DNA of 29,629 nt from IMG/VR virus record IMGVR_UViG_3300048027_000247, positions 1-29,629 of that record; one strand, 5' to 3'. The notes below the pieces were generated by a model, which saw only the letters and a list, made by a program, of their open reading frames with translations, was not told where the DNA came from and did not search any database. Origin of the DNA: a virus. The translations under genes were made by a program, and so were the position numbers. Of the stretch, positions 3 to 29,596 are shown piece after piece (position 1 is the first letter of the stretch; every line of letters starts with the position of its first letter).

Positions 3-1529
3 AAAATGGGTGGTACAAGTTCACCAAAACTTGAATTTGATGGAACTACATTATCCATTGATGGTACAGTAACCGCAGGAGCTGGTTCTATTGGTGGGTG
101 GACAATTGGTTCATCACATATTGGAATAAAAGGAACGGCAACCTCAAATGATACTTATGGTGAGTTTACATTAGGTTCTTCAGGATATATTTCAGCACCT
201 CAATTTAAAATTGCACAAGATGGTACTGCAACATTTAAAGGAATTCTTGAAGATACCGCAACCTTCAAGTCTGGTAGTACAACAAAAGCATTTAATACCA
301 TGTTTGGTGTTGACGCAACTGGTTTAATTCTAAAAGTACCAAGATTTAGAGATAGTGATGGAACAGTTAAAAATGCTGCTACAAGATTTACAAACCTTGA
401 AGATGATATTGATACTGAATTGACTGCAATTTCAACTGCATATGGTGGAAGTTATAGTTGTGTATTGCCTGGTACTAAAATAATTACTAAAAGAGGTGAG
501 ATAAATATAGAAGATACAAAAGACGATGATATAATCAAAGTATTTAACTTTGAAACTAAAGAATGGGATTGGTCACCGATTGACCACATTACTAGAGATA
601 AAGTTGAAGGATGGAGTTTAATAAAAACAGAATCGGGCAAAGAACTAAAATGTTCTAACTCACATTTACTATATCATCCTGATTATCCAAATTCTGCAAT
701 TGCAATAGATGAGCTTGGAGTTGGTGGTGAGTTGTATGTTGCCGATGGTGAAAACTTAGTTATTGATAAAATAAAAAGTATAGAAACTTTTGATGAAGAA
801 GTTGAAGTTTGGAATTATGAATTAGATGTAGTTCACAACTATGTTTCAAATGGAATACTTTCACACAATACATCATCTAAGTTATCACCCGCACCGACTG
901 GACCATCCGGCCTTGAAACAACACTTGGACACCAATACAAAAAAGATGTAACATCAGATATTAATTCTGGTGACTTGGTTAAATTAGGTGTAAATAATGA
1001 ACTTCATAAAGTCACAACTGCAAAAGACACTAATGTTGTTGGAATTCTGTGGGAAAAACTTGAACTAAGTTATGTTCAGAAATTTGAAGGATTTGGATTA
1101 GGAAAAAATGATACAAGTGATTCAGACGAACTTACCCCACCTGAGGAATACTACTCCGCATCAAGAAAAGATTCATTTGGCGATTATATTCCTGTAAGTC
1201 AAACAGGTTCTAAAGAAATTTGGAAAGTGGCTTCGATTGGGGATAGTGTAACGCAGGATGAATCAGGTTCATTTGTTTTACCTGGTTTTAAATTGTGTAA
1301 CCAAGGTGGTGATGTAAATAAAGGAGATTTACTATGTTCATCAGATACGCCTGGTTATCTAATGAAACAACCATCAGAGTGGGTGGTAACTTCATTTAGT
1401 GGTTCAAGTCCACTTTACGAAGAAAGACAATCACATACTTCATATACAGTTGCTAAGTGTATGATATCCTCTTCATGGGATTCTAATGGTAGAATGGAAA
1501 ATGTATATGGATACTTGTATTGTGGATAA
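3..1529 (+). CDS. Tail-fibre-like virion protein, 5' partial, intein-containing
   Basis: The frame is open to the window edge and the first in-frame ATG (position 6) begins in what looks like mid-protein, so the true start is probably upstream. The N-terminal part is Gly/Ser/Thr-rich with a 'GSIGGWTIG' segment, a pattern common in phage tail-fibre and tail-tip proteins. Residues 152-288 (counted from position 6) form a mini-intein, annotated separately. After it the protein resumes with 'TSSKLSPAP' and ends in a Cys-containing beta-rich segment ('KGDLLCSSDTPGYLMK') typical of phage structural proteins. Splicing would remove 137 residues and join Ser151 to Thr289. The virion role is inferred from composition and from the late-gene neighbourhood; the receptor or tail position is unknown. 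It is followed 37 nt later by the nucleotidyltransferase/ligase gene. Confidence 0.75.
   Translation, partial: KMGGTSSPKLEFDGTTLSIDGTVTAGAGSIGGWTIGSSHIGIKGTATSNDTYGEFTLGSSGYISAPQFKIAQDGTATFKGILEDTATFKSGSTTKAFNTMFGVDATGLILKVPRFRDSDGTVKNAATRFTNLEDDIDTELTAISTAYGGSYSCVLPGTKIITKRGEINIEDTKDDDIIKVFNFETKEWDWSPIDHITRDKVEGWSLIKTESGKELKCSNSHLLYHPDYPNSAIAIDELGVGGELYVADGENLVIDKIKSIETFDEEVEVWNYELDVVHNYVSNGILSHNTSSKLSPAPTGPSGLETTLGHQYKKDVTSDINSGDLVKLGVNNELHKVTTAKDTNVVGILWEKLELSYVQKFEGFGLGKNDTSDSDELTPPEEYYSASRKDSFGDYIPVSQTGSKEIWKVASIGDSVTQDESGSFVLPGFKLCNQGGDVNKGDLLCSSDTPGYLMKQPSEWVVTSFSGSSPLYEERQSHTSYTVAKCMISSSWDSNGRMENVYGYLYCG
459..869 (+). other. Mini-intein (Hint domain, no endonuclease) in tail-fibre-like gene
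   Basis: This in-frame segment encodes 137 residues from Cys to Asn. It starts with 'CVLPGTKIIT' (block A, nucleophile Cys1) and has a block B-like 'CSNSHLLYHP' with a conserved-type His. A block F-like 'VWNYELDVVHNYVSNGI' follows, and it ends 'SHN' before Thr, the usual block G His-Asn plus hydroxyl +1 residue. All residues needed for class 1 protein splicing are visible. There is no room for a homing endonuclease between blocks B and F, so it is a mini-intein. The alternative is a Hint domain that only self-cleaves, but the intact C-terminal His-Asn-Thr favours splicing. Confidence 0.85.
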
Positions 1530-1566: not shown

Positions 1567-4200
1567 ATGGGAAAGACTTTAACAAATTGGGTAGTAGACT
1601 CTATACTGAGTGAAGATATAAAAAAAGAGGTAGTAGTTTACTCAGGTAGATTTCAACCCTTCCATTCTGGACACGCAAAAGTTTACGAACATCTTGTCAG
1701 TAAGTTTGGTAAGAATAATGTATTCATAGGTACATCAAACAAACAAGGTGGTCCAAGACATCCATTTAACTTCAGAGAAAAAAGAGAAGTTATGACTACG
1801 ATGTTTAAAATCCCTTCTAATAAAATTGTTCAAGTTAAAAACCCATATTCACCATCAGAGGTGATGGATAAGTTTCCAGAAAAAACAACGGCATTTATTA
1901 CTGTCGTAGGAAAAAAAGATGCAAACAGATTAGCAAGTCCTGGTTATCAAAAATATTTTTCAATGTATAAAAAGGGAAATGTTGATACAGGTTACAAAGA
2001 TAAGGGATATGTTTATGTATCACCATCTTTTGGTAATATAAGTGGTACTGATGTTCGTAAGGGAATGTCGAGAGGGAGTGATTCTCAAAGAAAATCATTC
2101 TTTAAAAAAGTATATGGTAAATTCAATCCAAAAATATTTAACTTAGTATCAGGTAGATTAATCTCAGTAGAATCCGTAATGGAATCTTTTTTACAATCAA
2201 TTAACATTAATAGTTTAATCAATGAAGCTTCACAAATTCCAACAAGTGGTAAAGGTATTGTAGATGATGGGCCAGGTGCATTCTATGGTAATATGAAATC
2301 TTATAAAGCAGAGATGGAAGAAGTTGTTGGGGACTTAGGTTGGGATATTGTAAACTACTTAATGGACGAAGACTCAATGGAATCGTTTAACACCCATTAT
2401 CCGAATGGACCTGGTAGATATCAAGTATCATTCTTTCCAAGTGGTGATACTATGGATGGGCAGAAAAAGAGATATGGTAAAGATATAACTGGTAGACCTG
2501 CTTATAGAAAATGGGCAAAACATATTAAAAGAGTTGCATTGAGATTGGGTATGGAATTTGTTAAATTCGCTGAACCAAAAGATTTAGATAACCTTACTCC
2601 TAAAACCCTCACAAAAAAACAACAAGGTAAATCCGCTTCACTAAAAGAAGATTTAAAACGATTTGAAGCTATCGTAGGTGATACGATTGAATGTGATGAA
2701 TGTGACCATAGTTGGAAAATAGAAGATGGTGGTGATGACTTATATATATGTCACGAGTGTGGAAATGATAACGAACCAACCATTGACGAAAAGAAAAAAC
2801 CAAAAAGTAAAAAAGCATCTTTAATGAAACAAAAGAGAAACTTTTACTTAAAACCTGATAATGCAAAAAAAGAACTTGACAACTCAGGTAAAGAAGGACA
2901 AGTACTTTCAAAAAAAGTTGGTAAACAACGATTATACTTTGTGTCCTATGTTGGAAATGCAGGAACACAAAATATATTTAATGAAAGTATGATTATGGAA
3001 GGTGGAGCATATGGGCATATGAATCATCCATTCGATACAGAAATAAATTTGACATTTGGTGATTTAAAAATAATCATATCAAAAGCTCTTGAAGGTACAT
3101 TAGAATTTGCAAGAGAAAAAACAGATGGACAAGCTCTGGCTATATCATATCGTAAAGATAGAGGTATTATCGCTGCCAGAAATAAAGGACACCTCAAAGA
3201 CAGAGGACTTAACGCATTAGACATCAAAGGTGTCGCCGATAAGTTTGCTAATAGGGGTGGGTTGACCGATGCGTATAATTTCGCAATGAGAGATTTAGAA
3301 TCAGCCATTTCAAAACTCTCCGATGCGCAAAGAAGTAAAATATTCAAGGATGGCTCAAAGTTTATGAACCTTGAAGTTATATGGCCGGAGTCAGTAAATG
3401 TAATACCATATGGTCAACCTCTATTAGTCTTTCATGGAACGATGGAGTATAATGAAGATGGAAAGGCAATCGGTGCTGATACATCAGACGCTAAAGTATT
3501 AGCGGGTATGATAAAGCAGGTAAATGCCGATGTTCAAGATAATTACACTATCCAAGGACCGCCAGTTGTTAAGATACCAAGGAGTCAGGATTTATCAAAC
3601 AAGAAATCAATTTATTCATCGAAGGTAAGTAAACTTCAAAAAGAATTTAAACTAAAAGATTCTAATGGAGTTGCAGATTACCATCAAGCATGGTGGAGTG
3701 ATTTTGTAGATAAAAACTCACCAACCACATTAGATAATAAAACTAAAATGGGGTTAGTAAAACGATGGGCGTTTTATGATAAATCATTTAGATTAGATAA
3801 GAAAAACATTTCTGATTCTAAAACAAGAGATTGGGCAAACAAGACAGATAAAATAGACCACTCAAAAATGGCTAAGAATAATATGAAACCATTCGAAGAT
3901 ATATTTTTAGGTCTTGGTGCAGAAGTACTTTCATTTATGTCATCAGCACTTACTGTTAATCCTGATAAATCACTTCGTGATATTCAGAAACAATTAGATA
4001 AAGTAATCAAAGATGTTCAGAAATCAGGTGACCCAAAAAAGATTGCAAAATTAAAAATGGAATTAGAAAGATTAAAGAGTATTGGTGGTAGAGATAAGAT
4101 AGTACCAAACGAGGGTATTGTATTCCTATATAAAGGTGGTACATATAAGTTAACAGGTACATTCGCACCTCTTAACCAAATCCTTGGCCTTTTCTATTAA
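1567..4200 (+). CDS. HxGH nucleotidyltransferase / zinc ribbon / KxDG ligase-like fusion protein
   Basis: The 877-residue protein has three regions. Residues 20-200 are a cytidylyltransferase-like nucleotidyltransferase: 'GRFQPFHSGH' (H33xxH36) and 'ISGTDVR' (158-164) match the HxGH and ISSTxxR motifs of NMN and phosphopantetheine adenylyltransferases. Residues 221-475 hold a module of unknown role and a zinc ribbon (C376xxC379, C395xxC398). Residues 480-877 look like a covalent nucleotidyltransferase of the DNA/RNA ligase superfamily: 'EKTDGQ' with candidate nucleophile K518 (motif I), 'NLEVIW' (601-606, motif III-like), 'NEGIVF' (motif IV) and 'YKLTG' (motif V). The boundaries carry gp21-type sites, LINE220/A221 and IME478/G479, suggesting release as separate proteins. 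Substrates cannot be told from sequence; nucleic-acid end repair or NAD metabolism are possibilities. No Shine-Dalgarno is visible before this ATG. Confidence 0.8.
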   Translation: MGKTLTNWVVDSILSEDIKKEVVVYSGRFQPFHSGHAKVYEHLVSKFGKNNVFIGTSNKQGGPRHPFNFREKREVMTTMFKIPSNKIVQVKNPYSPSEVMDKFPEKTTAFITVVGKKDANRLASPGYQKYFSMYKKGNVDTGYKDKGYVYVSPSFGNISGTDVRKGMSRGSDSQRKSFFKKVYGKFNPKIFNLVSGRLISVESVMESFLQSININSLINEASQIPTSGKGIVDDGPGAFYGNMKSYKAEMEEVVGDLGWDIVNYLMDEDSMESFNTHYPNGPGRYQVSFFPSGDTMDGQKKRYGKDITGRPAYRKWAKHIKRVALRLGMEFVKFAEPKDLDNLTPKTLTKKQQGKSASLKEDLKRFEAIVGDTIECDECDHSWKIEDGGDDLYICHECGNDNEPTIDEKKKPKSKKASLMKQKRNFYLKPDNAKKELDNSGKEGQVLSKKVGKQRLYFVSYVGNAGTQNIFNESMIMEGGAYGHMNHPFDTEINLTFGDLKIIISKALEGTLEFAREKTDGQALAISYRKDRGIIAARNKGHLKDRGLNALDIKGVADKFANRGGLTDAYNFAMRDLESAISKLSDAQRSKIFKDGSKFMNLEVIWPESVNVIPYGQPLLVFHGTMEYNEDGKAIGADTSDAKVLAGMIKQVNADVQDNYTIQGPPVVKIPRSQDLSNKKSIYSSKVSKLQKEFKLKDSNGVADYHQAWWSDFVDKNSPTTLDNKTKMGLVKRWAFYDKSFRLDKKNISDSKTRDWANKTDKIDHSKMAKNNMKPFEDIFLGLGAEVLSFMSSALTVNPDKSLRDIQKQLDKVIKDVQKSGDPKKIAKLKMELERLKSIGGRDKIVPNEGIVFLYKGGTYKLTGTFAPLNQILGLFY

Positions 4201-4208
4201 TTTTTGTA

Positions 4209-4216
4209 TATTTATA
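4209..4216 (+). promoter_or_regulatory. Late-promoter-like motif (TATTTATA)
   Basis: Exact TATTTATA preceded by a T-rich tract in the 36-nt gap before the gene at 4237; the motif ends 20 nt before the ATG. No -35 box is visible, as expected for a T4-type late promoter. Confidence 0.6.
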
Positions 4217-4236: not shown

Positions 4237-4821
4237 ATGTCAAAAAAGTTAAAAAATGTAAAAGCAGTCACCGAAATGATTGCCGGAACACATAAAAGTC
4301 AAACAAAAACTAATGTTAGTTTTGGTGAGACTAAATCCTTTGTCAAAAGAGAAGTTGGTGACCAATGGACTGATGATGAAGGTACACTTTGGGAACAAAA
4401 GAAAGGATACAAGGTTAAACTTGGTAAACTTTCAAAGTTAAGAGAAGACTTAACAAAGTTTCCAAATTGTAAAAAAGGTTGTAACTCGTACTTAAAGCCA
4501 ACACGAAACGATATATACATGAGAGGAATCCATGGTATGTGTTTCGATTGTGTTATTGAAATGGAACATCAAATGAGAATTGATGGAACATACGAAGAGT
4601 ACGAAAGAAAAAAGATTTATGCTAATATGAAGTCTTGGTTAAAACAAGCCGAGATTGAAAAGCAGGCAGTTAAAACGGCATTAAAGGCGAAATTCGTTAA
4701 TGAAGATGGTTCAATAGAAGAATGGAACGATATGTCGTGGGAAGATGTTGAAGAGAAGATTGATAACGAGTTTCGTCTTTTTAAAGAAAACTATCTAAAA
4801 AAATGGGAAGTTAAAAAATGA
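4237..4821 (+). CDS. Conserved phage protein with Cys pairs (putative zinc binding)
   Basis: The 194-residue protein is hydrophilic. I do not recognise a function. 'FPNCKKGCNSYL' (CxxxC) followed about 30 residues later by 'GMCFDCVIE' (CxxC) could bind one zinc ion. The N-terminal part, with 'GDQWTDDEGTLWEQKKGYKV', is of a kind I have seen in marine T4-like phage proteins, but I cannot name a family. It starts at ATG in an 'aagtgttATG' context without a Shine-Dalgarno. Its stop codon overlaps the start of the next gene (ATGA), which suggests translational coupling. The upstream TATTTATA motif probably drives this gene and the three that follow. Confidence 0.75.
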   Translation: MSKKLKNVKAVTEMIAGTHKSQTKTNVSFGETKSFVKREVGDQWTDDEGTLWEQKKGYKVKLGKLSKLREDLTKFPNCKKGCNSYLKPTRNDIYMRGIHGMCFDCVIEMEHQMRIDGTYEEYERKKIYANMKSWLKQAEIEKQAVKTALKAKFVNEDGSIEEWNDMSWEDVEEKIDNEFRLFKENYLKKWEVKK

Positions 4822-5228
4822 AGTCCTTTATAAAAGAAACTTACGAGTCATACAAGACAGATGGTGTACCTCATATGTTAGCATTGGAGTATACCATTTC
4901 TGATGTCTATCAAAAATTAGTATCAGAGAATCTAATGAATGAAGACCTTCGTAAGTGGTTTGGTAAAGGAAAGACTGGCACCTCATCAGGTGGTGGTTGG
5001 GATAGATATGGTTCAGATGGACAGAAGTTAGGTAAGTGTGGTGATGGTAAAGAAGGTGGTGCTTACGCCGCATGTCTATCACAAGAGAAAGCCAATAAGT
5101 TAGGACCAAAAGGTAGGGCAGCATTTGTAAGAAGAAAAAGAGCGGCACAGAAAAAAGGTGGTGACGCAAAAAAAGGTGGAAACAGAACTAAAGGTAAAAA
5201 ACCTACAAATAGTAAAACAGGGGCATAA
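4818..5228 (+). CDS. Small basic modular protein (DUF5872-like)
   Basis: This 136-residue protein has a helical N-terminus (1-45), then a linker 'NEDLRKWFGKGKTG', then a compact Gly/Cys module (about 58-112: 'GGGWDRYGSDGQKLGKCGD', C74 and C86, 'AAFVRRKRAAQKK'). A Lys/Gly-rich tail completes it. The middle module resembles a family found in phages and large viruses that I believe is Pfam DUF5872; this is from memory. The very basic C-terminus suggests DNA or RNA contact, fitting a packaged or nucleoid-associated protein. Translation is coupled to the previous gene by ATGA overlap. No catalytic residues are evident. Confidence 0.7.
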   Translation: MKSFIKETYESYKTDGVPHMLALEYTISDVYQKLVSENLMNEDLRKWFGKGKTGTSSGGGWDRYGSDGQKLGKCGDGKEGGAYAACLSQEKANKLGPKGRAAFVRRKRAAQKKGGDAKKGGNRTKGKKPTNSKTGA

Positions 5229-5230
5229 CA

Positions 5231-5998
5231 ATGAATCCAAGATTAAATAAAAAAGTAAAAAAAGACTTAGACGCATATTTTAAAGGAACAAGTGCGTCCT
5301 CACCAGAAGCACATCACGCTATTATGTTTATTTTGAAAGGTGCATTAACAGACGCAAACTTTCATAGTACATCTAAGAAAGTAGATAAACTTTTTCCAAA
5401 AGCTAAAGGTGCAAAATACTTTGGTAAGAGAGAGTGGGAAGATAATCTTGAGTCTAAAGGAATGGACATCGCCGCAGCCGCAAAATGGGATGGACACGAC
5501 ATTCTTGATGCAATCGGATTCTTTGTATCAATGTATATAGGTAGACCTCTTGGTTCAAAAATTGAAGACCTTAAAAATGAATCTCTAAATAAAGAACACA
5601 AATTATTAGAAAACTTATCTGTTCTTGTTGAAAAGAATGTTCCTACAAATCCATCTAAATGGTCTTACTACAAATCACAAGCTAAAAAGAAGTTTGATGT
5701 ATATCCATCAGCATACGCAAACGCATGGGCGGCAAAACAATATAAAGCCGCAGGTGGTGGTTGGAGAACTACAAAAGAAAATGTAGAAGAGACTATTGAA
5801 GAAAAGGTATCTGTATTTGATGAAAGGCATGTTGGTAAAAATGGTATTATCATTATGATTGATGATAACGGAAAGAAAGTATCAGCAATTTTCAAAAACA
5901 AAAAGAACGCAGATAAATTCAACAGAAATAATCCTGAAGACTTAAAAAAACTTTTAGATTTAGCTAAGAAAACTAAGTTTCCAAAAACAATAGACTAA
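5231..5998 (+). CDS. Modular hypothetical protein, putative virion-internal
   Basis: The 255-residue protein has at least three segments. Residues 1-110 are unrecognised and partly helical. Residues about 136-180 form a Trp/Tyr/Ala-rich module ('NPSKWSYYKSQAKKKFDVYP' followed by 'AYANAWAAKQYKAAGGGW') that recurs in many phage and large-virus proteins, function unknown. Residues 190-255 are a small alpha/beta module ('GIIIMIDDNGKKVSAIF'). It starts 2 nt after the preceding stop and is followed 8 nt later by the polyprotein-like gene, so the genes from 4237 to 7644 read as one operon. Its own matches to the gp21 site are poor ('LKNE/S'), so cargo status rests on context only. Confidence 0.7.
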   Translation: MNPRLNKKVKKDLDAYFKGTSASSPEAHHAIMFILKGALTDANFHSTSKKVDKLFPKAKGAKYFGKREWEDNLESKGMDIAAAAKWDGHDILDAIGFFVSMYIGRPLGSKIEDLKNESLNKEHKLLENLSVLVEKNVPTNPSKWSYYKSQAKKKFDVYPSAYANAWAAKQYKAAGGGWRTTKENVEETIEEKVSVFDERHVGKNGIIIMIDDNGKKVSAIFKNKKNADKFNRNNPEDLKKLLDLAKKTKFPKTID

Positions 5999-6006
5999 GG
6001 GACATC

Positions 6007-7644
6007 ATGGATAAAAAACAACTCAAGAGTATTATAAAAGAAGAATATCAAAATGTTAAGTCATTCATGGAATACAAATATGGATTCACACCTGAGTTAG
6101 GTAAAGTGATTTCTAATCCCTATGCAAAATCATTTGTAAACGAAGCCAAAGAACCTGAAGTAATTACTACATTAAGAAAAATCGTAAAGAATAAACAAAA
6201 CGATTTGATTAAAGATACTAAGAGTGGTAAGAAGGTAAGAGTTGATATGAATTCAGCAAACCTAATGGTTCAAGTATATGATGCACTTAAACAACAATCT
6301 AATAAAGATAAGTTTGTTAAGAGTGGTATCGTAATGATGGGACATATGGCTTACAAACTTATGAAAAAAGAATCAGTAAACGAAGGTGCTTACACTATTA
6401 TGAACGTTAATCATACCGTATCAACCACTAAGAAAAAGTTAATGAAAAAGTGGAAACAAAAAGGTGGATACGAAAACTTCGGTCAAAAAGAATTAGATAT
6501 TTTGAAAAAGAAGTTGAATTACAATCCGTATGGTTCAGACGAAGAAAGAAAGATTGCTAAAATCCTTGATAACTTCAATAATTGGGCAATGAATTATGAT
6601 GGTAGTATGAGAGAATCAGTAAACGAAGCTAAATCTATGGATATGAAAAAAAGATTAAAGGTTTACGATAAACTTAAAAAAGGTGATAAGATTACGATTA
6701 AGTATGGTTCATCAATGAGGGGTGGAGTTGAAAAGGAATTTGTAGTATCCAAAGGAAAAACTTTAGTTGGTAAACAAAAAGTAGAAAGAATCATTCTACA
6801 AAATCCGGCGAATCCAAAAGGTGTTAAGTATTATCTATATCAAAGAAACGGAAATGTAACTATGGCTATTGGTGATATGGCAGCTACCATCGAAGATATG
6901 CATGAATCAATAGATGAATCAACAGGTCTTGCAATCATACATAAAGCAGCTAAAAAAGGAAGTTATCCTGTTAGTATTGTGGCAACTATGTTAGGTAAGG
7001 TTGTAAAACAAGAATTAGTAAAAACACCAATGGCAGTCCCAGCAGCATTTAGAATGATGCAAGGTGGATACCCACGAGCAACTATCGCAATTGAAGATAG
7101 AACAGGTAAAATTTTATTCAAAGAAGGATTTGTAAAAGAATCAGTAAACGAAGGTATGTTTAAAGTAATCGACCAAATTAGACAAGATTCTAAAGACGCG
7201 GGAGATTTTATCAAGAATGTATTTTCAGACCCAGACTTTAAAGACATGAAAAAGGACAAAGACTTTTTAAAGTATCTTAAATCTATTTACGAAGGATTTT
7301 CAGTAGTAGAAGAATATGATGTAGAAAATGAACAAGACATAAAAGAATTTGTTAACTTTATGAAAGAATACAAAGCTGATATAAATGAAGCAGAGTATCA
7401 AGGTAGGGATGTCAAGCTTGGTAAAATAATGCAAGGTGATGTTAAAAAGTTTAAAGTCTATGTTAAGAATCCAAAAGGAAATGTAGTGAAAGTAAACTTT
7501 GGTCACAAAGGTAAGGGAAATGAAAAGACAATGTCTATCAAAAAAAATAATCCTGAAAGAAGGAAAGCATTTAGAGCAAGACACAATTGTGATAATCCTG
7601 GACCGAGACATAAAGCAAGATATTGGTCTTGTAAAAAATGGTAA
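6007..7644 (+). CDS. Putative capsid-cargo polyprotein with repeated gp21-type sites
   Basis: The 545-residue Lys-rich protein is built of about seven modules separated by short related linkers: FVNE46/A47, SVNE126/G127, SVNE207/A208, SIDE304/S305, SVNE382/G383 and DINE461/A462. Segment lengths are 46, 80, 81, 97, 78, 79 and 84 residues. Each linker fits the T4 gp21 prohead-protease rule ([L/I/V]-x-E before A/G/S), so I infer processing into separate small basic proteins inside the prohead. The last module ('KKFKVYVKNPKGNVVKVNFG', then 'FRARHNCDNPGP' and 'KARYWSCKKW') is a recurrent phage module whose function I do not know. The N-terminus 'MDKKQLKSIIKEEY' is similar to that of the large terminase here. 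Function of the individual modules is unknown. Confidence 0.75.
   Translation: MDKKQLKSIIKEEYQNVKSFMEYKYGFTPELGKVISNPYAKSFVNEAKEPEVITTLRKIVKNKQNDLIKDTKSGKKVRVDMNSANLMVQVYDALKQQSNKDKFVKSGIVMMGHMAYKLMKKESVNEGAYTIMNVNHTVSTTKKKLMKKWKQKGGYENFGQKELDILKKKLNYNPYGSDEERKIAKILDNFNNWAMNYDGSMRESVNEAKSMDMKKRLKVYDKLKKGDKITIKYGSSMRGGVEKEFVVSKGKTLVGKQKVERIILQNPANPKGVKYYLYQRNGNVTMAIGDMAATIEDMHESIDESTGLAIIHKAAKKGSYPVSIVATMLGKVVKQELVKTPMAVPAAFRMMQGGYPRATIAIEDRTGKILFKEGFVKESVNEGMFKVIDQIRQDSKDAGDFIKNVFSDPDFKDMKKDKDFLKYLKSIYEGFSVVEEYDVENEQDIKEFVNFMKEYKADINEAEYQGRDVKLGKIMQGDVKKFKVYVKNPKGNVVKVNFGHKGKGNEKTMSIKKNNPERRKAFRARHNCDNPGPRHKARYWSCKKW
6369..7153 (+). repeat. Three exact copies of a 17-nt linker repeat
   Basis: AGAATCAGTAAACGAAG occurs at 6369-6385, 6612-6628 and 7137-7153, each encoding the ESVNE(G/A) junction. 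A near copy lies at 17481-17496 in another gene. Identity at DNA level, including codon choice, points to recent duplication or shuffling rather than protein-level convergence alone. Confidence 0.9.
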
Positions 7645-14928: not shown

Positions 14929-15561
14929 ATGAAATCACTTTTAATTGATACAATGATATTTGAAGTAACTCCTACTATGTTGGCAGAGGCTAAATCTGAA
15001 CATGGTAGATTTCTGGTAGATGGTGTTTTACAAAGAGCAAACGCTAAAAACCAAAATGGACGAGTATATCCAAAAGATATATTAAGAAGAGAAGTTACTA
15101 AGTACTTAGGAAAAGAAATCGCAGAGAATAGAGCGTATGGTGAATTAGACCATCCAGAATCATCAGTAGTTGAATTAAAAAACACTTCACACATTGTAAG
15201 AAATGTAAAGTGGAGAGGTGATGATGTAATCGGAACAGTAGAAATTCTAAATACACCATCAGGAAAAATATTACAAGAAATTATAAAAGCAGGTTGTACT
15301 GTTGGTATCTCTTCAAGAGGTATGGGTTCTGTAAAACAGATAAGTGAAGATGGGACTGTTGCAGTAGAACAAGACTTTGAATTAATTTGTTGGGACTTTG
15401 TATCTAACCCATCAACTCATGGGGCATTTATGTCGCCAAAGAATGAAGGTGTTATAAATGAAGGTATTAGTAGAAAACAAGATACTTATAAGTATAATAA
15501 AGCACAAGACATTATGAGAGACATCATCTGTGAAGTTGGTGGCTATTGTGAATGTTTTTAG
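14929..15561 (+). CDS. Prohead core protease (T4 gp21-like, S78-type serine protease)
   Basis: The 210-residue protein is close in length to T4 gp21 (212). It cleaves scaffold, capsid and internal proteins inside the prohead before DNA packaging. The catalytic pair is visible: His75 in 'GELDHPE' and a Ser in 'VGISSRGMGS' (S128 or S129). 'GRVYPKDIL', upstream, and 'DFVSNPSTHGAFM' are also typical. Two matches to the family's own cleavage rule occur, LAE20/A21 near the N-terminus and INE178/G179 near the C-terminus, consistent with self-processing. It is followed not by scaffold, as in T4, but by four small modular genes and bS21. Confidence 0.95.
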   Translation: MKSLLIDTMIFEVTPTMLAEAKSEHGRFLVDGVLQRANAKNQNGRVYPKDILRREVTKYLGKEIAENRAYGELDHPESSVVELKNTSHIVRNVKWRGDDVIGTVEILNTPSGKILQEIIKAGCTVGISSRGMGSVKQISEDGTVAVEQDFELICWDFVSNPSTHGAFMSPKNEGVINEGISRKQDTYKYNKAQDIMRDIICEVGGYCECF

Positions 15562-15575
15562 ATTAGGGATATATT

Positions 15576-16394
15576 ATGAAATTAAAAGATTTACTTAACG
15601 AATCATCAAAGTCTTACAAAAGAGTAAACATTGGTGAAGAAGAGCAAGAAAAGAAAATGACTTCAGAAGAAAAAAGAGCATTTCTTGAAGCCGTATCTGC
15701 ATATAAGAAATTTGGTGAAACAATTTATCGTAATGGTGACCTTATGGAAACATATGGCGCAATTAAGAACATTGTTGAGAATGCAAACAAAGTAACACTC
15801 GAAGAAACGGGTGATTGGTTTGATAGAGTTACTGTTAACAGACATATGAAATCAATGAACGAGTCATTTAAAGTTTTTCAAAAAACATTAAGTGAAGTTC
15901 ACACACTACAACAAAGAATGGAGTCTACTTATGATGAAATCGGTGAAGTACTTTCGAAATATTATGAAATTAAAGAAGGAAATGAATTCGGCGCTGAAAG
16001 AGCTAAAGCAATCGCTAAAGGCAAAGATGAGTTCGAAGTAGATGGAAAAAAATATCCTGTAAAATCAGTTGACAAAGATGATAAAGAAAATGCAAAAGAA
16101 TTTACTAATGAATCTAAGTCAATGAAACTAACAAGTTTATTAAACGAGTCATTTGGATTGGGCGAATTACCATCATCTAAATTAAAGAAGATGAAAGTAT
16201 CTGCTAAAGAAATGATGGATTCAGTTAACCCAAAAAATAAAGCAATCGTTGAATCATTCTCTACTGAAGAAAAAAGAATCGTAATGATGGCAGTTAGAAA
16301 GATTGCTAAATACATGAACAGAGACCTTGCAACTGCATTGAGTTATGTAATTGGTGCAGCACAAGAATTAGAAAGAAGTGGTAAGGTAAAGTAA
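15576..16394 (+). CDS. Two-part modular protein with internal gp21-type sites (putative cargo)
   Basis: The 272-residue protein begins 'MKLKDLLNE/SS', a match to the gp21 rule at an N-terminal peptide, as in T4 capsid-targeting sequences. Residues 25-130 are a helical module. Residues 135-175 ('GNEFGAERAKAIAKGKDEF', then 'VDGKKYPV') are a small module seen repeatedly in marine phage proteins. At residue 183 'MKLTSLLNE/SFG' repeats the N-terminal peptide inside the chain, as if two cargo genes had fused; residues 192-272 are the final helical module. IKE134/G135 is another candidate site. It lies right after the protease and overlaps the next gene by one base (TAATG). Biochemical function is unknown. 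Confidence 0.75.
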   Translation: MKLKDLLNESSKSYKRVNIGEEEQEKKMTSEEKRAFLEAVSAYKKFGETIYRNGDLMETYGAIKNIVENANKVTLEETGDWFDRVTVNRHMKSMNESFKVFQKTLSEVHTLQQRMESTYDEIGEVLSKYYEIKEGNEFGAERAKAIAKGKDEFEVDGKKYPVKSVDKDDKENAKEFTNESKSMKLTSLLNESFGLGELPSSKLKKMKVSAKEMMDSVNPKNKAIVESFSTEEKRIVMMAVRKIAKYMNRDLATALSYVIGAAQELERSGKVK

Positions 16395-16696
16395 TGATTA
16401 AATTAAAAGACATATTAACGGAAATCTCAGCAATCGGTGGATTAAAGCAGGTTGTAAAAGGTAATACTGATAGAGTAGAAGGAATCAAAGTATCAAAAGA
16501 AATGGCACAAGCTATGATTGATTGGTTTAACTCTTCACCTTATGGTAGAAAATATCCAAATGCTAAAAAAGGTAGATTACATTTATCAATAGGTATTATG
16601 ATGTCTTTTGGTTTAGATAGATATGCTAAACATAAAGGTGCTAAAGAAGAATTGAAACACTTGAAAACATTAGCAAAAGCAATGAGAGGTGACTAA
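16394..16696 (+). CDS. Small putative cargo protein with MIKLKDILTE leader
   Basis: The 100-residue basic protein starts 'MIKLKDILTE', nearly the same leader as its neighbours at 15576 and 17136. The residue after Glu is Ile rather than Ala/Gly/Ser, so cleavage there is less certain. The body is helical and Lys-rich ('KEMAQAMIDWFNSSPYGRKY', 'HLKTLAKAMRGD'). I do not recognise a family. It is translationally coupled at both ends: its ATG overlaps the preceding TAA, and its TAA overlaps the next ATG. Confidence 0.7.
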   Translation: MIKLKDILTEISAIGGLKQVVKGNTDRVEGIKVSKEMAQAMIDWFNSSPYGRKYPNAKKGRLHLSIGIMMSFGLDRYAKHKGAKEELKHLKTLAKAMRGD

Positions 16697-17127
16697 TGGA
16701 TAAGACGGAAATCTTACAAGATATTTCAGTAGACCTTTCTTTTATGTACAAGAAAGCACTTAAGAATATTAAAAAGTTAGACCCTAAGACAAGACAGCAA
16801 TTTGCAAAGTTGTTTGTTGACTTTAAAAATAAAGTGGATGACTTATCTGAAGGTGTTGGAATGAATCGTAGACTTCATATGGGTATAAACGAAGCTAACT
16901 ACAATACCAAACAAGATGCGATGAACGCATATATGAAAGGTAAAGTAACTGCACAAGAATTAGATAAGATTGCAAAAAATGATTTTAAATCATCAGTTGC
17001 AACTAAAAAAGAATTACAAAACTTTATGAACTCAGGATACATGAAAGAGTTGATGGCCAATACATATGGACTCAAAGTACCTGCTATGGAAAAGAAAGTT
17101 AAAGAATTAATGAAGTACGCGAGTTAA
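16696..17127 (+). CDS. Small putative cargo protein with two gp21-type sites
   Basis: The 143-residue protein is basic and helical. Residues 1-50 form one helical segment, followed by DLSE52/G53, then 'NRRLHMGINE66/A67', then a C-terminal module ('TKQDAMNAYMKGKVTAQELD') ending 'VKELMKYAS'. Both internal sequences fit the gp21 consensus and would release a 77-residue C-terminal product. No function is recognised. It overlaps the previous gene by one base and precedes the next by 8 nt, with an 'aagga' Shine-Dalgarno for that gene overlapping this stop. Confidence 0.7.
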   Translation: MDKTEILQDISVDLSFMYKKALKNIKKLDPKTRQQFAKLFVDFKNKVDDLSEGVGMNRRLHMGINEANYNTKQDAMNAYMKGKVTAQELDKIAKNDFKSSVATKKELQNFMNSGYMKELMANTYGLKVPAMEKKVKELMKYAS

Positions 17128-17135
17128 GGAACATT

Positions 17136-17765
17136 ATGATAAAACTAAAAAACTTATTAAGCGAAAAGGCTGACCCAGCATTAAAAGATGGTGAGAAAAA
17201 AATCATCGCAAAGGCAATGAGTAAAGCTATTGGTCGTGATGTTGAAGTTAACATGGACGATGTTGAATACCATACAGGCACAAGTACATTCTACGCAGGT
17301 AATGGTGGCGAAACACAATTATTCGTTGGATATTACGAAGATGAAGACAAACCATACAATGTTAGTATTGAAGATGGTTCAAAGCAATACGCTCAAGTAG
17401 ATGCAAAAAATATTAAGGATGTTATAAAGGCAGTAGTTACATTATCAAAGAAATTCAAAAAGAACCTATTAGAATCTAAAAAATCAGTAAACGAAGATTA
17501 CTCATCACATTACAGTCCTCAAGTTGGTTTATTTTATCTTGAAGGTGTTCCATTCACAAAGGAAAGAATTGTAGAAGTAATTAAATATTTTAGAAGTGCT
17601 AAAATAAAATCTGCAGTTAGTCAATTTGAATACCGACCAACGCTTCTTATAAAAGATAAAGAAAATAATGAATCAGTAACTATTGATGCTAGACGATTAA
17701 AAACATTAATTGACTTCTACAAAAAAGATAGTGCTAAGTTAGCATCTGATAAAGATTTCAAATAA
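17136..17765 (+). CDS. Putative cargo protein with MIKLKNLLSE leader
   Basis: The 209-residue protein starts 'MIKLKNLLSE/K', the same leader type as 15576 and 16394 though Lys follows Glu. Residues 12-105 form an alpha/beta module ('GTSTFYAGNGGETQLFVGYY'). A linker 'ESKKSVNE120/D' shares 16 nt of near-identical DNA with the linkers of the 6007 gene. Residues 125-209 form a second module ('GLFYLEGVPFTKERIVEVIK'). The two-module plan with a VNE linker mirrors the large polyprotein, although the +1 residue (Asp) is off consensus. Start ATG has 'aagga' 6 nt upstream. Function unknown. Confidence 0.7.
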   Translation: MIKLKNLLSEKADPALKDGEKKIIAKAMSKAIGRDVEVNMDDVEYHTGTSTFYAGNGGETQLFVGYYEDEDKPYNVSIEDGSKQYAQVDAKNIKDVIKAVVTLSKKFKKNLLESKKSVNEDYSSHYSPQVGLFYLEGVPFTKERIVEVIKYFRSAKIKSAVSQFEYRPTLLIKDKENNESVTIDARRLKTLIDFYKKDSAKLASDKDFK

Positions 17766-17790
17766 TTTATATTTACTAAAATAATTTCTA

Positions 17791-17798
17791 TATTTATT
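17791..17798 (+). promoter_or_regulatory. Late-promoter-like motif (TATTTATT)
   Basis: One-base variant of the motif in the gap before bS21. It lies 2 nt upstream of a terminator-type hairpin, which is an odd arrangement for a promoter of the next gene. Confidence 0.45.
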
Positions 17799-17799
17799 A

Positions 17800-17833
17800 A
17801 CATCGGTCACTAATGGCCGGTGTTTAATTTTTT
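17800..17833 (+). terminator. Rho-independent terminator after the cargo operon
   Basis: The arms 17800-17808 and 17815-17823 can form a 9-bp stem with two G-U pairs and a 6-nt loop, followed by TTAATTTTTT. It ends the 15576-17765 cluster and precedes bS21. Confidence 0.75.
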
Positions 17834-17873
17834 ATATATGCAAAAAAGATACAAAAAAGTAAGAAGGGAACAA

Positions 17874-18086
17874 ATGATTATCCCTGGTAAATTCAAAGCC
17901 GCAAAAGTAATCAACGGAAATATTGAAGCCGCACTTAAGTTTTTTAAACGACAAGTTAAAGAATCAAATGTCTTACAAGAACTTAAGGACAGAAAAGAGT
18001 TTATAAAACCATCCGCAGTTAAAAGAAAACAAAAGATGGACGCTATCAGAGCAGAATATATAAGAAGAATTAGGTCAAACGATTAA
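17874..18086 (+). CDS. rpsU: Phage-encoded ribosomal protein bS21
   Basis: The 70-residue product matches bS21: 'NGNIEAALKFFKRQVKESNV' then 'LQELKDRKEFIKPSAVKRKQ' and a basic helical C-terminus ('AEYIRRIRSND'). Family length is about 60-71 residues. I choose ATG 17874 because 'aagaaggga' sits 4 nt upstream and the protein then begins at the bS21 N-terminus; an in-frame ATG at 17838 and GTG at 17820 would add a non-homologous extension. bS21 binds the 30S platform near the anti-Shine-Dalgarno and affects initiation. Viral bS21 is known from marine phages and is thought to enter host ribosomes. The gene lies between two terminators, just before scaffold and capsid. Confidence 0.92.
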   Translation: MIIPGKFKAAKVINGNIEAALKFFKRQVKESNVLQELKDRKEFIKPSAVKRKQKMDAIRAEYIRRIRSND

Positions 18087-18246: not shown

Positions 18247-19392
18247 ATGGCTAAATCTGATTTATTAAAAGAAGCTATCGCTGACGCAAAGGCAGTAAAA
18301 GAAACTGCATTAGCAAACGCAAAGATGGCCTTAGAAGAAGCCTTCACTCCAAAACTTCAATCAATGTTATCTCATAAGATTGCTGAAGAATTAGACGAAG
18401 ACGATATCGAAGAAGATGAAGTTGCTGACGAAATGGCAATGGCATCTGATGAGGAAGTTGCTGACGAAACCTATGAAGGTGAAGAAGTAGCTGACGAAAA
18501 CGAAGATATGGACGAGTCTGATGATGAAGTATCTGAAGAGGAAGTAGCTGACGAGGAATTAGATACAGAAGATAAAGAAGAAGTCGAAGACATCGCATCT
18601 GATGTTGTTGATGGACATGAAGACGAAATGCATGACGAAGAAGAAGCTGCTGAAGAAGCAGAAGAAGAAGCGCCTGCAGACGAAATGAATGACATGGACG
18701 AAGATGAAATGGACGAAGACGAACTTGATTTAGAATCTGTAATTAAAGAATTAGAAGCTTCTATCAACGAAGAAGAAGTTGAAGAGGAAGAAGAAGTAAA
18801 AGAAGAACTTGACTCATCTGATTTAGGTGACGGCGAAAACGCTGAACCATCTGATGATGCTAACGATTCTTCTGACATCGAAAACGATGACGAGTTAAAT
18901 ATTGACGAAATCATTGAAACATTAAAAGAAATGTCAGACGAAGAAGTAGATGAAAACGAAGAAGAAGAAGTTGAAGAATCTGTTGTAAACGAAGAAGAAG
19001 AAGTTGAAGAGACTGAAGAAGTTGAAGAAGAAAATAAAGAGTTGGAAGAAGCATACGCTACTATCGAATCTTTAAAAGGAACTATCAACGAAGTTAATCT
19101 TTTAAACGCTAAACTACTTTACACCAACAAATTATTCAGAACTTTTGATTTGAATGAGTCACAAAAAGTTAAAGTTATCGAGAACTTTGATAGAGCTGCA
19201 AACTTAAGAGAAGTTAAGCTTGTTTTTGCTACATTAGGTGAAAACTTAAATGTTGCAAGAAAAAAGAAAACTGTTGTTAAAGAAGGAATCGCTTCTAAAC
19301 CAACTGCAAGTACTGCACCTAGCAAATCAATAATCTCTGAAGGTAACGAAGTTGCTAACAGATTTAAGAAGTTAGCAGGACTAATAAAATAA
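18247..19392 (+). CDS. Prohead scaffold protein (T4 gp22-like)
   Basis: The 381-residue protein lies directly before the capsid gene, as gp22 does in T4. The middle (about 45-265) is an extreme acidic low-complexity region of Glu/Asp with repeated 'EEVADE' and 'VEEE' blocks. The C-terminal part is helical and ends 'EVANRFKKLAGLIK', a typical gp22 ending. Scaffold forms the prohead core and is degraded by gp21. Candidate sites are LLKE9/A10 at the N-terminus ('MAKSDLLKEA'), VKE/GIAS and ISE/GNE near the C-terminus. It has the best ribosome site in the window ('aaggag', 8 nt spacing), fitting high expression. A long Ser-rich reverse-strand frame is only its shadow. Confidence 0.9.
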   Translation: MAKSDLLKEAIADAKAVKETALANAKMALEEAFTPKLQSMLSHKIAEELDEDDIEEDEVADEMAMASDEEVADETYEGEEVADENEDMDESDDEVSEEEVADEELDTEDKEEVEDIASDVVDGHEDEMHDEEEAAEEAEEEAPADEMNDMDEDEMDEDELDLESVIKELEASINEEEVEEEEEVKEELDSSDLGDGENAEPSDDANDSSDIENDDELNIDEIIETLKEMSDEEVDENEEEEVEESVVNEEEEVEETEEVEEENKELEEAYATIESLKGTINEVNLLNAKLLYTNKLFRTFDLNESQKVKVIENFDRAANLREVKLVFATLGENLNVARKKKTVVKEGIASKPTASTAPSKSIISEGNEVANRFKKLAGLIK

Positions 19393-19413: not shown

Positions 19414-21075
19414 ATGGATACAAATTCATTATTAAACGAATCCGCTGGGTATACTAAGAAAATGTCTGATGAGGCAAAAGGATTAGTATCTAAGTGGGAC
19501 AAGACTGGCCTTTTAGAAGGTATCGAGTCTGATTTTGAAAGAAGTACTATTGCTACTCTACTTGAAAACCAAGCAAGAGAATTAGTAAAAGAAGCTTCTT
19601 CAACAGGTACATCCGCAAACTCTGAAGAGTGGGCAGGTGTAGCACTTCCATTGGTTAGAAGAATTTTCAGCGAAATCGCTGCAAAAGAATTCGTTAGCGT
19701 ACAACCAATGAACTTACCATCAGGTCTGGTATTTTACTTAGACTTTAAATATGGTACTGCACAACCAGGATTTGAAACTGGTGCAGGTAAAGATTCACAA
19801 ACTGACTCAGTATTCGGTGTAACTGAAACTGCAAGTGAAGCAAGTGAAGGTCTTTACGGAGCAGGAAGATTTGCATATTCAATCAACGAGACTGAATCTG
19901 GACCTTTAACTCAAGCAGCAGCTGGAGCAGTAGCGGCAGCTAGTACATTTACATCTGAATCATTCGCAAATGGTGTCGCTTTAGACCCAGCAATCGATTA
20001 TGATTCAAGCTTCTCACAATCTTTATCAGCAGCTGATAGAGCATTGTTAAGAAGAGTAACAGTAGCTAACGCATCGTTAAGTGGTGCTGATTTAGAAGGC
20101 GTAAGAGCATTCGAAATTAGTGGTTCTAACATCGCAGCTTACTATCCTGCATACACTAAAGCAAATGTTTCTGGGTCTAACTCAGTATCATTCATGGTTA
20201 AATTAGTAGGTGCTACTAACGCAATCGCTGGTGTTAAAGTAAAATACCAAAAGCAACCAACTGACATTACAAGAGGTGACTTTGAAGACACAACTTCAGG
20301 TGGTTCAGACTTAGGTATTCCAGAATTGAATGTTGAACTTAGAAGTGTTCCAATCGTAGCTAAGACAAGAAAGTTGAAAGCACAATGGACTCCTGAGTTC
20401 GCACAAGATTTAAACGCTTATCACTCAATTGACGCTGAAGCTGAATTAACTTCTATGTTATCTGAGTACATCTCACAAGAGATTGACTTAGAAATCTTAG
20501 ATATGTTAATGGAAAACGCTTTAACTGAAGCTAAGTGGTCTGCTAGAATCGGATATTCTTGGGATGGTAGTAAATTCACTTCAAGTGGTCTTAACGCAGC
20601 AGTTGAGAGATATACTCAACAACAATGGTTCCAGACTTTAGGTACTCAGTTACAGAGAGTTTCTAACCAAATCCACGCTAAGACAATGAGAGGTGGAGCA
20701 AACTTTATGGTAGTATCTCCTGATGTTGCTACTATCATCGAGTCTATTCCAGGTTATCAGTCAAATGGTACAGGTAACGAAATGCAATTTGCGTTTGGTG
20801 TAAGCCAAGTAGGTTCTTTCGCTAACAGATACCAAGTGTACAAAAACCCATACATGAAAGAGAATGTAATTCTATTAGGATTCAAAGGTTCTCAATTCTT
20901 GGAAACTGGTGCAGTTTACGCTCCATACATTCCATTAATTATGACTCCTCTTGTGTATGACCCAACTAACTTCCAACCAAGAAAAGGTGTAATGACTCGT
21001 TACGCTAAACAAATGGTAAGAGGTGAGTTCTATGGTAAAGTAATTTGTCATGGTTTAGAGGCAATAAGCGGATAA
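19414..21075 (+). CDS. Major capsid protein (T4 gp23-like)
   Basis: The 553-residue precursor forms the hexamers of the head shell. 'FVSVQPMNLPSGLVFYLDFK' corresponds to the conserved 'GVQPMNxPTG' region of gp23. The segment 'LVKE60/ASSTG' sits where T4 gp23 is cleaved (after Glu65), so mature capsid protein probably starts at Ala61. The N-terminus 'MDTNSLLNE/SAG' also resembles the targeting leaders of the cargo proteins. C-terminal 'PLIMTPLVYDPTNFQPRKGV' is typical. The gene has a 'ggag' ribosome site and is followed by a strong terminator. Confidence 0.96.
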   Translation: MDTNSLLNESAGYTKKMSDEAKGLVSKWDKTGLLEGIESDFERSTIATLLENQARELVKEASSTGTSANSEEWAGVALPLVRRIFSEIAAKEFVSVQPMNLPSGLVFYLDFKYGTAQPGFETGAGKDSQTDSVFGVTETASEASEGLYGAGRFAYSINETESGPLTQAAAGAVAAASTFTSESFANGVALDPAIDYDSSFSQSLSAADRALLRRVTVANASLSGADLEGVRAFEISGSNIAAYYPAYTKANVSGSNSVSFMVKLVGATNAIAGVKVKYQKQPTDITRGDFEDTTSGGSDLGIPELNVELRSVPIVAKTRKLKAQWTPEFAQDLNAYHSIDAEAELTSMLSEYISQEIDLEILDMLMENALTEAKWSARIGYSWDGSKFTSSGLNAAVERYTQQQWFQTLGTQLQRVSNQIHAKTMRGGANFMVVSPDVATIIESIPGYQSNGTGNEMQFAFGVSQVGSFANRYQVYKNPYMKENVILLGFKGSQFLETGAVYAPYIPLIMTPLVYDPTNFQPRKGVMTRYAKQMVRGEFYGKVICHGLEAISG

Positions 21076-28765: not shown

Positions 28766-29596
28766 ATGCCAAATTGGAAAAAATTAATAACTTCTGGCAG
28801 TAATGCCGTATTAAACAAAGTAACCGCCTCATCGGATGTATTATTCGAAGGTGGTTTTCAACTTGAAGGACAATTTAACGCAGGAGCGAATATTGTCCCA
28901 CAAACCGACAATATAGGGTCGGTTGGTACATCAGCACTAACATTTAACGATGGTAGATTTACGAGTTTTACCGTAGATAATACATTAACGAGTAAATCAA
29001 GCTTGTCTGCCGTTGATATTACCGCATCTGGTCTAATAGAAATACCAACATACATTGAACATAAAGGTGATACCAACACTAAATTTGGATTTGGTGGTGC
29101 AGATAGTTTTGAAGTTAAAACAGGTGGTACAAAAAGACTACAAGTAAATAATAGTGGTGTTACAATTATAGGTTCACTTGACGCAGAAAAAGAAAAACAA
29201 ATCATCGTAACAAATGGTGAGGTACTAAAAGCATCTGAAGTAACTGGCTATGTACCATTTGCAAATATAAACCAAATAGATAGTGATGTTCAAACAGGTT
29301 ATTGGCAATATGTCGCACCTGTTGAGGGATATGTAGAAAAAGTAATTGTGAGTCCACATCAATCTGCAACGGCTGGTAGTATTGGGTTAACATGGAAAAA
29401 TCAAAGTGGAAACTTAGGAACTGAAGTAACTGGTACAATAAATGCAACCGCAGGTGTTCCAACAACCTTTAATTTTGGTTCATCATATAATTTTAGTGGT
29501 GACGATAGATTAAATTTATTTATAGATAGAAAATCATCAGCAAAGTCACGAGGATTTGGTTTTACAATAATATTAAGACTTGATTTTGTTAGCTAA
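28766..29596 (+). CDS. Tail-fibre-like protein B
   Basis: The 276-residue virion-type protein starts 'MPNWKKLITSGSNAVLNKVT', paralogous to the gene at 26948. The middle contains 'TDNIGSVGTSALTFNDGRFT' and 'GGTKRLQVNNSGVTIIGSLD', repeat types common in phage fibre and baseplate-wedge proteins. The C-terminal domain ('TGYWQYVAPVEGYVEKVIVS', 'NLFIDRKSSAKSRGFGFTII') is a beta-rich domain probably exposed at the fibre end. The ribosome site 'agagga' follows the structured leader. Role in adsorption is inferred. Confidence 0.75.
   Translation: MPNWKKLITSGSNAVLNKVTASSDVLFEGGFQLEGQFNAGANIVPQTDNIGSVGTSALTFNDGRFTSFTVDNTLTSKSSLSAVDITASGLIEIPTYIEHKGDTNTKFGFGGADSFEVKTGGTKRLQVNNSGVTIIGSLDAEKEKQIIVTNGEVLKASEVTGYVPFANINQIDSDVQTGYWQYVAPVEGYVEKVIVSPHQSATAGSIGLTWKNQSGNLGTEVTGTINATAGVPTTFNFGSSYNFSGDDRLNLFIDRKSSAKSRGFGFTIILRLDFVS
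29517..29524 (+). promoter_or_regulatory. Late-promoter-like motif inside the 3' end of a gene
   Basis: Exact TATTTATA within the coding sequence of fibre-like protein B, 82 nt before the ATG at 29607. It may serve the next gene or be chance in AT-rich DNA. Confidence 0.3.

Follow-up and report, generated by a model that had tools for sequence, protein, structure and literature searches.

Many small head proteins apparently made as a single chain by a virus of aquatic bacteria

Background

What becomes of a phage protein that is built as a string of small modules, each joined to the next by what looks like a site for the phage's own head protease? The question is raised by the gene at positions 6007-7644 (+ strand) of a 29.6-kb virus record (IMG/VR record IMGVR_UViG_3300048027_000247, positions 1-29,629), the whole of which is referred to here as the window. 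The gene encodes a protein of 545 amino acids, and by comparing it with its relatives we arrive at the view that this virus of aquatic bacteria apparently produces many small head proteins as a single chain. The internal proteins of T4, weapons against restriction enzymes, were found gene by gene via their leaders (PMC12373910). If the view taken here is true, many aquatic T4-like phages deliver several internal proteins per gene, and the linker makes these proteins readable by eye.

Six linkers divide the protein into seven segments

Translation of 6007-7644 identified six linkers, SFVNE/A, ESVNE/G, ESVNE/A, ESIDE/S, ESVNE/G and ADINE/A (the slash marks the predicted cut). Cuts after E46, E126, E207, E304, E382 and E461 would yield segments of 46, 80, 81, 97, 78, 79 and 84 residues, termed M1 to M7. 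The pattern [SDF][VI][ND]E[AGS] occurs six times in the protein, a number reached in none of 10,000 residue shuffles (mean 0.02, maximum 2). Translation and motif count thereby bear out the linkers and segment lengths of the original prediction, which was made from the sequence of the window, and the shuffles, together with the de novo enrichment of four-residue words given below, ruled out a chance origin of the linkers.

That prediction had rested on the rule for T4 gp21, L/I-x-E (PMC9026906). The rule as written does not fit, because four of the six linkers carry V at P3 and only SIDE and DINE agree with it; in the form [LI]xE[AGS] it finds three sites in the protein, and 268 of 10,000 shuffles get that many. 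It was too narrow and was replaced by the sites of the phage's own gp23 (LVKE/AS) and gp21 (VINE/G), which give the motif [VIL]-x-E before A, G or S, to which all six linkers conform. Extra candidate sites are VKE/S immediately ahead of SVNE/G and SIYE/G within the sixth segment, while residue 12 of the protein lies at a weak IIKE/E. The description of the segments as small and basic held for six of them (isoelectric point (pI) 9.0-10.5) and failed for segment 383-461, which is acidic (pI 4.6, charge -7).

The candidate cutter and its own sites

The presence of gp21 in the same phage, also part of the prediction, was confirmed by a Pfam match to Peptidase_S77 (E 8.4e-32) at 14929-15561 (+ strand), and this prohead protease is the proposed trans-acting cutter. 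Close to its C terminus it carries VINE/G (15451-15462, + strand). The major capsid protein gp23 (19414-21075, + strand) has a predicted cut at LVKE/AS (site 19582-19593), where P3 is V as in SVNE. Both sites are conserved among relatives. Of 21 distinct gp23 N termini, 20 carry LVKE/AS or LVSE/AS, the remaining one, in locus L119, reading LISE/S. The C-terminal ends of gp21 were located by the FVSNPST motif, and [VILM]xE/[GS] is present in every one of the 50 distinct ends that extend to the site, the 51st being truncated before it; in L119 this site reads SVNE/S. C-terminal autocleavage has been reported for the protease of SPN3US, and its conservation suggested (PMC5694885).

By eye, and over a handful of lineages rather than as a statistic, P3 of the gp23 site tracks the linkers. 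It is V in the window lineage and in Flavobacterium phage immuto (vB_FspM_immuto), both of which carry SVNE; in immuto, a cultured relative, gene KNV73_gp079 contains the sites MNE/SVNE/G and KE/SLNE, and the gp23 site is VSE/A. P3 is I in Microcystis phage Mel-JY01, whose 38.7-kb head region is without SVNE in the + frames. In T4 (gp23 site FLTE/A), P-SSM2, Melnitz and C48C1 it is L, and in Melnitz-like contigs M4 is flanked by ELDE or EIDE.

Modules are rearranged among relatives

Relatives were collected from IMG/VR by a first scan with the whole 545-residue protein as query (42 loci) and by a scan with gp21 (a further 80 loci, the best 80 of 291); later loci were added through module searches. 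The relatives' proteins are not simple orthologues of the window protein but hold differing sets of modules with linkers between them. They are 674 amino acids long in L005, 783 in L008, 505 in L006, 410 in L041 and 429 in L042 (N end open), and the loci of the gp21 scan encode polyproteins of up to 847 amino acids with module orders that again differ. L252 has the order M3-M5-M6, without M4, and L260 the order M5-M4-M7.

The linker glutamate has largely stayed in place through these rearrangements. Counted over distinct contexts, glutamate precedes the module in 141 of 165 contexts of M2-M7 and is the last module residue in 96 of 120 contexts of M2-M6. Some of the misses are one-residue alignment shifts and others are real, chiefly M4 and M7 of distant relatives. 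Homologues with unconserved linker glutamates had been proposed as evidence against the polyprotein; given these counts the glutamates are mostly kept, though some relatives differ.

The end of a gene in one phage is a linker in another. Where the modular open reading frame (ORF) upstream of the polyprotein gene (5231-5998, + strand) closes its last module with a stop (KTID-stop), L042 reads on through KAIDE/SVNE/A into M2. Some modules also occur in separate genes behind leader-like starts: M2 stands alone behind a leader in L370 (MKLLDILNE/GKEPLI, an 85-codon frame), and the second half of ORF 15576-16394 is a separate gene in L064 with its own leader, MIKLKKLINE/SFGLGELPSSK. Peptidase_S77 is encoded by 22 of 24 long module-bearing contigs (55-340 kb) picked from earlier matches, among them L087, itself a product of the gp21 scan. 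The comparison of relatives gives good support to a polyprotein whose modules are bounded by prohead-protease-like sites.

Among 298 internal segments (35-200 amino acids) of 115 polyprotein ORFs, from loci partly selected by the DNA seam described below, we counted 132 families, 84 of them singletons. The median length is 76 residues; 240 of the 298 have a pI above 8 and 43 a pI below 6. If the segments are what they appear to be, these 132 families are a ready catalogue of candidate injected anti-defence proteins.

A codon-fixed DNA seam

A de novo enrichment run on four-residue words in 616 non-redundant proteins from the first two scans, made without use of the linker finding, placed SVNE at the top, with 145 copies seen as against 4.43 expected. 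Its codons are nearly uniform, TCA at 85%, GTA at 97%, AAC at 88% and GAA at 94%, compared with 39, 46, 41 and 81% generally. The 12-mer TCAGTAAACGAA encodes 105 of the 145 copies (72%), where a codon-pair chain predicts 8.2%; codon or codon-pair bias, tested as the cause of the fixed seam, was thus insufficient. Conservation is sharply bounded at about 16 nt. All 111 distinct contexts of the 12-mer in 1.42 Mb of partly overlapping loci are in the frame of a retained ORF, and none is on the opposite strand. An exact IMG/VR scan for the 16-mer GAATCAGTAAACGAAG returned at least 120 stretches; in 119 new loci, 169 of 174 sites are in frame within the longest frame (at least 60 codons). Of these 169, 117 lie in frames with two or more SVNE, and some of the 52 with a single SVNE look unrelated (for example very long repetitive proteins).

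The linkers ESINE (16 copies) and ADINE (10 copies) are far less codon-fixed. In KVNFG of M7 the codons for V and N show strong fixation as well (GTA 97%, AAC 92%), so one conserved VN pair is no proof by itself. In the polyprotein gene the exact seam, GAATCAGTAAACGAA, encodes ESVNE, the most frequent linker, at 6370-6384 and 6613-6627 and recurs at 7138-7152. SFVNE (6130-6144) and ESIDE (6904-6918) are not exact seams, and ADINE (7375-7389) belongs to the linker type without codon conservation in relatives; all six lie on the + strand.

The close relative L005 shows what may happen at a seam. The window and L005 share one block of 95.6% nucleotide identity (6.3 kb, reaching into M2) and another of 98.6% (8.5 kb, from the last seam onward), and L045, on the same contig as L005, is 97.7% identical to the window over 18.4 kb. 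Between the blocks the two phages have diverged alleles of M2 and M4 (about 73 and 78%), a different module stands in place of M3, and L005 has additional modules of 52 and 80 amino acids. The 80-residue module, which L005 carries at the place of the window's seam at 7138-7152, is flanked by two seam copies, one of them bearing a single change; the left flank of the window's single seam is that of L005's first copy and the right flank that of its second. This is the pattern expected from recombinational gain or loss of one unit of module plus seam, in either direction, as far as the two sequences can tell.

Breakpoints fall at linkers

Breakpoints between relatives were located in protein and in DNA. 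The protein test used masked linkers, blocks at least 70% identical, proteins with at least two strict sites and 200 null draws; at 97 of 365 block ends both partners have a strict site no more than 10 residues away (null mean 7.9, maximum 17). Some of the ends away from linkers sit at weaker sites, examples being KEEEE or NE followed by other residues. The DNA test took 106 genes from loci not picked by the seam, required unrelated flanks and used 300 null draws. With linkers masked, both genes have an adjoining [VIL][ND]E linker at 265 of 538 junctions (null 8.3, maximum 17), and unmasked, 278 of 622 are near linkers in both (null 4.0, maximum 12).

Three other runs are given for completeness. 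Under lax BLAST settings the ends were noisy, with 319 of 1179 close to a strict site (null 181), and stricter settings superseded this run. An earlier DNA run placed 291 of 855 ends at linkers in both genes (null 4.9) and is biased to linkers because shared linkers lengthen matches. A run on N-masked DNA (568 of 1084 in both genes, null 17.2) does not count as a valid test, since stretches of N by their nature interrupt alignments at the linkers.

A proposed pathway and its alternatives

We regard it as likely, with some room left for doubt, that the gene encodes a late polyprotein which is packaged in the prohead and cut in trans by gp21, and whose modules are probably ejected and are remixed at the seam. 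ORF 6007-7644 would be expressed late, as a polyprotein of small internal head proteins. By analogy with T4, the chain would enter the prohead core, where the phage's own gp21 would cut after the glutamate of each [SD][VI][ND]E/[AGS] linker; the freed modules, of about 80 residues and mostly basic, would remain with the packaged DNA and would then probably be ejected into the host, as for T4 internal proteins. Recombination at the linker DNA, GAATCAGTAAACGAA, may let related phages swap whole modules, gain them or lose them. With the seam as the point of recombination, the sequence would have a double role, keeping the frame and restoring a cut site on either side of the new module. The sequences themselves show the modules, their linkers, the breakpoints at these, the codon-fixed seam and the co-occurrence with gp21; we infer the cutting by gp21, the packaging, the ejection, the route of recombination, the late expression and a function directed at the host. 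On the last point, T4 injects Ip1, Ip2 and Ip3, which inhibit different GmrSD restriction enzymes (type IV) and have only the leader in common (PMC12373910); a fast-changing set of modules would therefore fit the same use.

A wider proposal, which we put forward tentatively and rate as somewhat less than probable, is a cassette system at the level of protein, in which phages share a large pool of small injected anti-host proteins, carried as cassettes that keep the frame and in many cases end in one and the same 15-bp sequence. As that sequence would be the seam and also code for the capsid-protease site, an inserted cassette would be packaged, cut and delivered without a promoter, ribosome site or targeting signal of its own. 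On the main reading already, the locus would be a concrete case of a protease site that may double as a recombination seam, and of a direct route of modular protein evolution that keeps both frame and processing.

Several observations weigh against the pathway. The N-terminal segment, with 46 residues ending in FVNE/A, is without a clear textbook leader of 10-19 residues, the weak IIKE/E at residue 12 aside. Glutamate is absent before the module in 24 of 165 contexts (8 in M4 and 10 in M7), and P1' is A, G or S at 101 of 145 SVNE sites, with E at 19 and D at 6, so not every linker need be cut. The genes of the DNA junction test were each selected for at least two [VI]NE[AGS], and 273 of the 538 masked junctions lie off linkers in at least one gene. 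Two of the 24 long records are without gp21 (possibly fragments or weak matches), M7 is found at 70% identity in small Pelagibacter phage records, for example Aegir and Kolga (MT375519, MT375529), and searches of the modules against Pfam, PHROGs and PADLOC reveal no host target.

The main rival is a multidomain protein that is never cut. Its linkers would be flexible joints and recombination seams only, and the whole chain would work as a polyvalent protein, either inside the cell or in the virion; of such proteins, examples with 2-15 domains are known in phages (PMC5512222). Recombination alone could explain why the seam is conserved as DNA, and 44 of the 145 SVNE sites lack A, G or S at P1'. 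We nevertheless consider an uncut chain unlikely, and less likely than a cut polyprotein, because the joint resembles the sites in the phage's own capsid protein and protease as well as the leader ends of neighbouring proteins. Modules also stand behind leaders ending in the same type of site, doubled sites such as DE/SVNE/A recur, and the SVNE 12-mer is found in frame only.

That last fact bears equally on the idea that a dedicated recombinase or homing enzyme spread the linkers by targeting the 15-bp DNA, the protease site being incidental. Fixation at the codon level, the sharp boundary and the exact insertion between two seam copies would all suit such a target. The 12-mer is, however, never out of frame or on the opposite strand in the loci surveyed, and junctions also occur at linkers other than the seam (371 of 855 ends near any [VIL][ND]E linker vs 240 near the seam). 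We hold this to be the most improbable of the alternatives and one we hardly credit. Rather more plausible, though still decidedly improbable, is a core or scaffold protein cut merely for clearance from the prohead, like gp22, gp67 and gp68 of T4, a phage whose core proteins undergo multiple cuts and for the most part disappear (PMC9026906). The gene's place in the head region, close to the genes for the portal and gp21, speaks for this. Yet the window has a separate, acidic gp22-like gene, most internal segments of the polyproteins are basic, two modules are predicted to fold with fair to good confidence (the M4-M5 model below), and rapid turnover of modules would be unlike an essential scaffold. 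A polyprotein cut by gp21 into internal proteins thus remains the reading that we prefer.

Related systems

Mobile regulatory cassettes exist in T4-type phages, and internal proteins, cuts by gp21, head proteins with multiple sites and polyvalent proteins are all already known. T4 IPI, IPII and IPIII and Alt are small, often basic, variable between phages and brought into the prohead by a leader that gp21 cuts after Glu (PMC12373910, PMC9026906). Leader-like starts can be seen here on some of the relatives with modules and on neighbouring genes of the window. In T4, though, there is one protein and one leader per gene, whereas here there are many modules per chain, each linker is a candidate site and whole modules are exchanged. 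T4 gp22, gp67 and gp68 and head proteins of giant phages are single chains with several prohead-protease cuts (PMC9026906, PMC5694885), but the pieces are scaffold or propeptides and are mostly cleared, while here they look like folded, exchangeable modules. Polyvalent proteins (Iyer et al. 2017) are chains of several domains that are presumed to be passed into the host, for which those authors drew their own analogy to RNA-virus polyproteins (PMC5512222); they are described as released by peptidase domains inside the chain, in contrast to the separate cutter gp21 and the modules of about 80 residues proposed here. Modularity of phage proteins through shuffling of fragments is documented (PMC10684548), and the excerpts of that paper make no mention of 'protease', 'polyprotein' or 'linker'. 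Among the papers listed by literature searches that covered few subscription papers and no bioRxiv preprints, we recognised no description of an exchangeable internal-protein polyprotein with a protease site as a codon-fixed seam.

Features of individual modules

All modules are encoded on the + strand; the context counts given here for M2 to M5 include some contexts that end at contig edges and some near-duplicates. M1 (6007-6144, residues 1-46) is a putative N-terminal leader ending in SFVNE, and is internal in L101 and L111. M2 (6145-6384, residues 47-126) was found in 26 distinct contexts and M3 (6385-6627, residues 127-207) in 27; M3, which is swapped for another module in L005, gave no match when searched against cultured phages. 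M4 (6628-6918, residues 208-304), a predicted beta-barrel, is known from 64 distinct contexts, including two (L243 and L244) from named members of the Kyanoviridae. M5 (6919-7152, residues 305-382), predicted alpha/beta, is known from 22. The acidic M6 (7153-7389, residues 383-461) is helical in the model, with the SIYE/G site inside. The C-terminal M7 (7390-7641, residues 462-545) corresponds to phrog_7595 (function unassigned) and was the most-matched module, with 70 matches in the loci then gathered.

Structures were predicted for two module pairs. In the M4-M5 model (mean predicted local distance difference test score (pLDDT) 77.2) a beta-barrel is followed by an alpha/beta domain; in the stretch that joins the two, confidence has its minimum at D303-E304-S305, the predicted cut, and it is likewise low over the final eight residues, which include VKESVNE. 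The M5 alignment was without diverse rows, which may itself depress confidence in M5. Confidence was lower overall for M6-M7 (mean pLDDT 73.5, predicted template modelling score 0.48). Foldseek returned no match at E <= 0.001 for either model. Other fold comparisons likened M4 to Tudor/SH3-like barrels (Spindlin1 4mzh, Z 6.3, root-mean-square deviation (rmsd) 2.1, 65 aligned) and M5 to the small subunit of Rubisco (9iqo, Z 8.0, rmsd 2.7, 75 aligned), two similarities at a level that common arrangements also reach, and gave a best Z of 2.4 for M6-M7; no match to M4-M5 or M6-M7 told a function.

Pfam, PHROGs and PADLOC assigned no usable function to the modules. No Pfam domain was above cut-off in the 545-residue protein, and the sole such domain in ten other polyprotein ORFs was the cytidylyltransferase of L232. 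Weak matches below cut-off included PADLOC Csm2 to residues 402-453 (E 0.0035) and Pfam PLAT to 465-509, with KOWx_SPT5, Imm70 and REGB_T4 in other polyproteins. A DNA query with two seams matched cultured phages at chance level only.

Three observations concern modular proteins elsewhere. In Melnitz (L244) and similar contigs (many of L297-L332) M4 follows ELDE or EIDE, not SVNE; these contigs apparently hold a parallel polyprotein system with its own linker. A 1974-residue protein at L232:4474-10395, related to the product of window ORF 1567-4200, joins a cytidylyltransferase domain, several seam modules and a region, GGAYGHMNHPF, shared with that ORF. The protein before gp23 in immuto (L392:12973-14214) repeats in tandem a stretch of about 65 residues (GFEQWLDSVSAQMDKFGKNNPTIQAIEKAV..), each copy starting at a possible cut site.

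Genomic setting

The window holds a head region of T4 type, with gp21, gp23, an acidic gp22-like gene between them and terminase-like and portal-like genes before; the identities of the terminase-like, portal-like and gp22-like genes were assigned by position, length and sequence or composition. The gp22-like scaffold (18247-19392, + strand, pI 4.1), whose identity is suggested by position and composition, is distinct from the polyprotein. Among the matches listed, the best from cultured phages for gp21 and gp23 were Mel-JY01 and immuto, at 52-57% identity, in searches that may omit records closest to the window. Genes between gp21 and gp22 start in leader-like fashion, comparable to the start of T4 gp24, MAKINELLRE/S. 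The first of them, a core-region protein (15576-16394, + strand), has the leader MKLKDLLNE/S and an internal leader-like linker, MKLTSLLNE/S, at 16122-16148. The stretch 15576-18086 is also modular: proteins that share the start of ORF 15576 are 573-596 amino acids long in L073 and L100 and have several linkers. Upstream of the polyprotein gene, ORF 5231-5998 has a weak match to the polyvalent-associated domain LPD5 (14.4 bits, cut-off 27), and 1567-4200 (+ strand) encodes an 877-residue protein that contains a cytidylyltransferase and the candidate site SLINE/A.

The word TATTTATA, which we take to be the reverse complement of T4's late promoter word, is found upstream of eight + strand genes (at 4209, 7669, 8721, 11388, 13360, 18127, 21143 and 21860), 24-53 bases from the start in seven of them and 120 in one; a ninth copy, at 29517, is within a gene. 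It may be the late promoter of this lineage, in which case genes 4237-7644 could form one unit. In the first ORF of the window (6-1529) a stretch from about CVLPGTKIITKRGE to VVHNYVSNGILSHN/T resembles, by eye, an intein or Hint domain.

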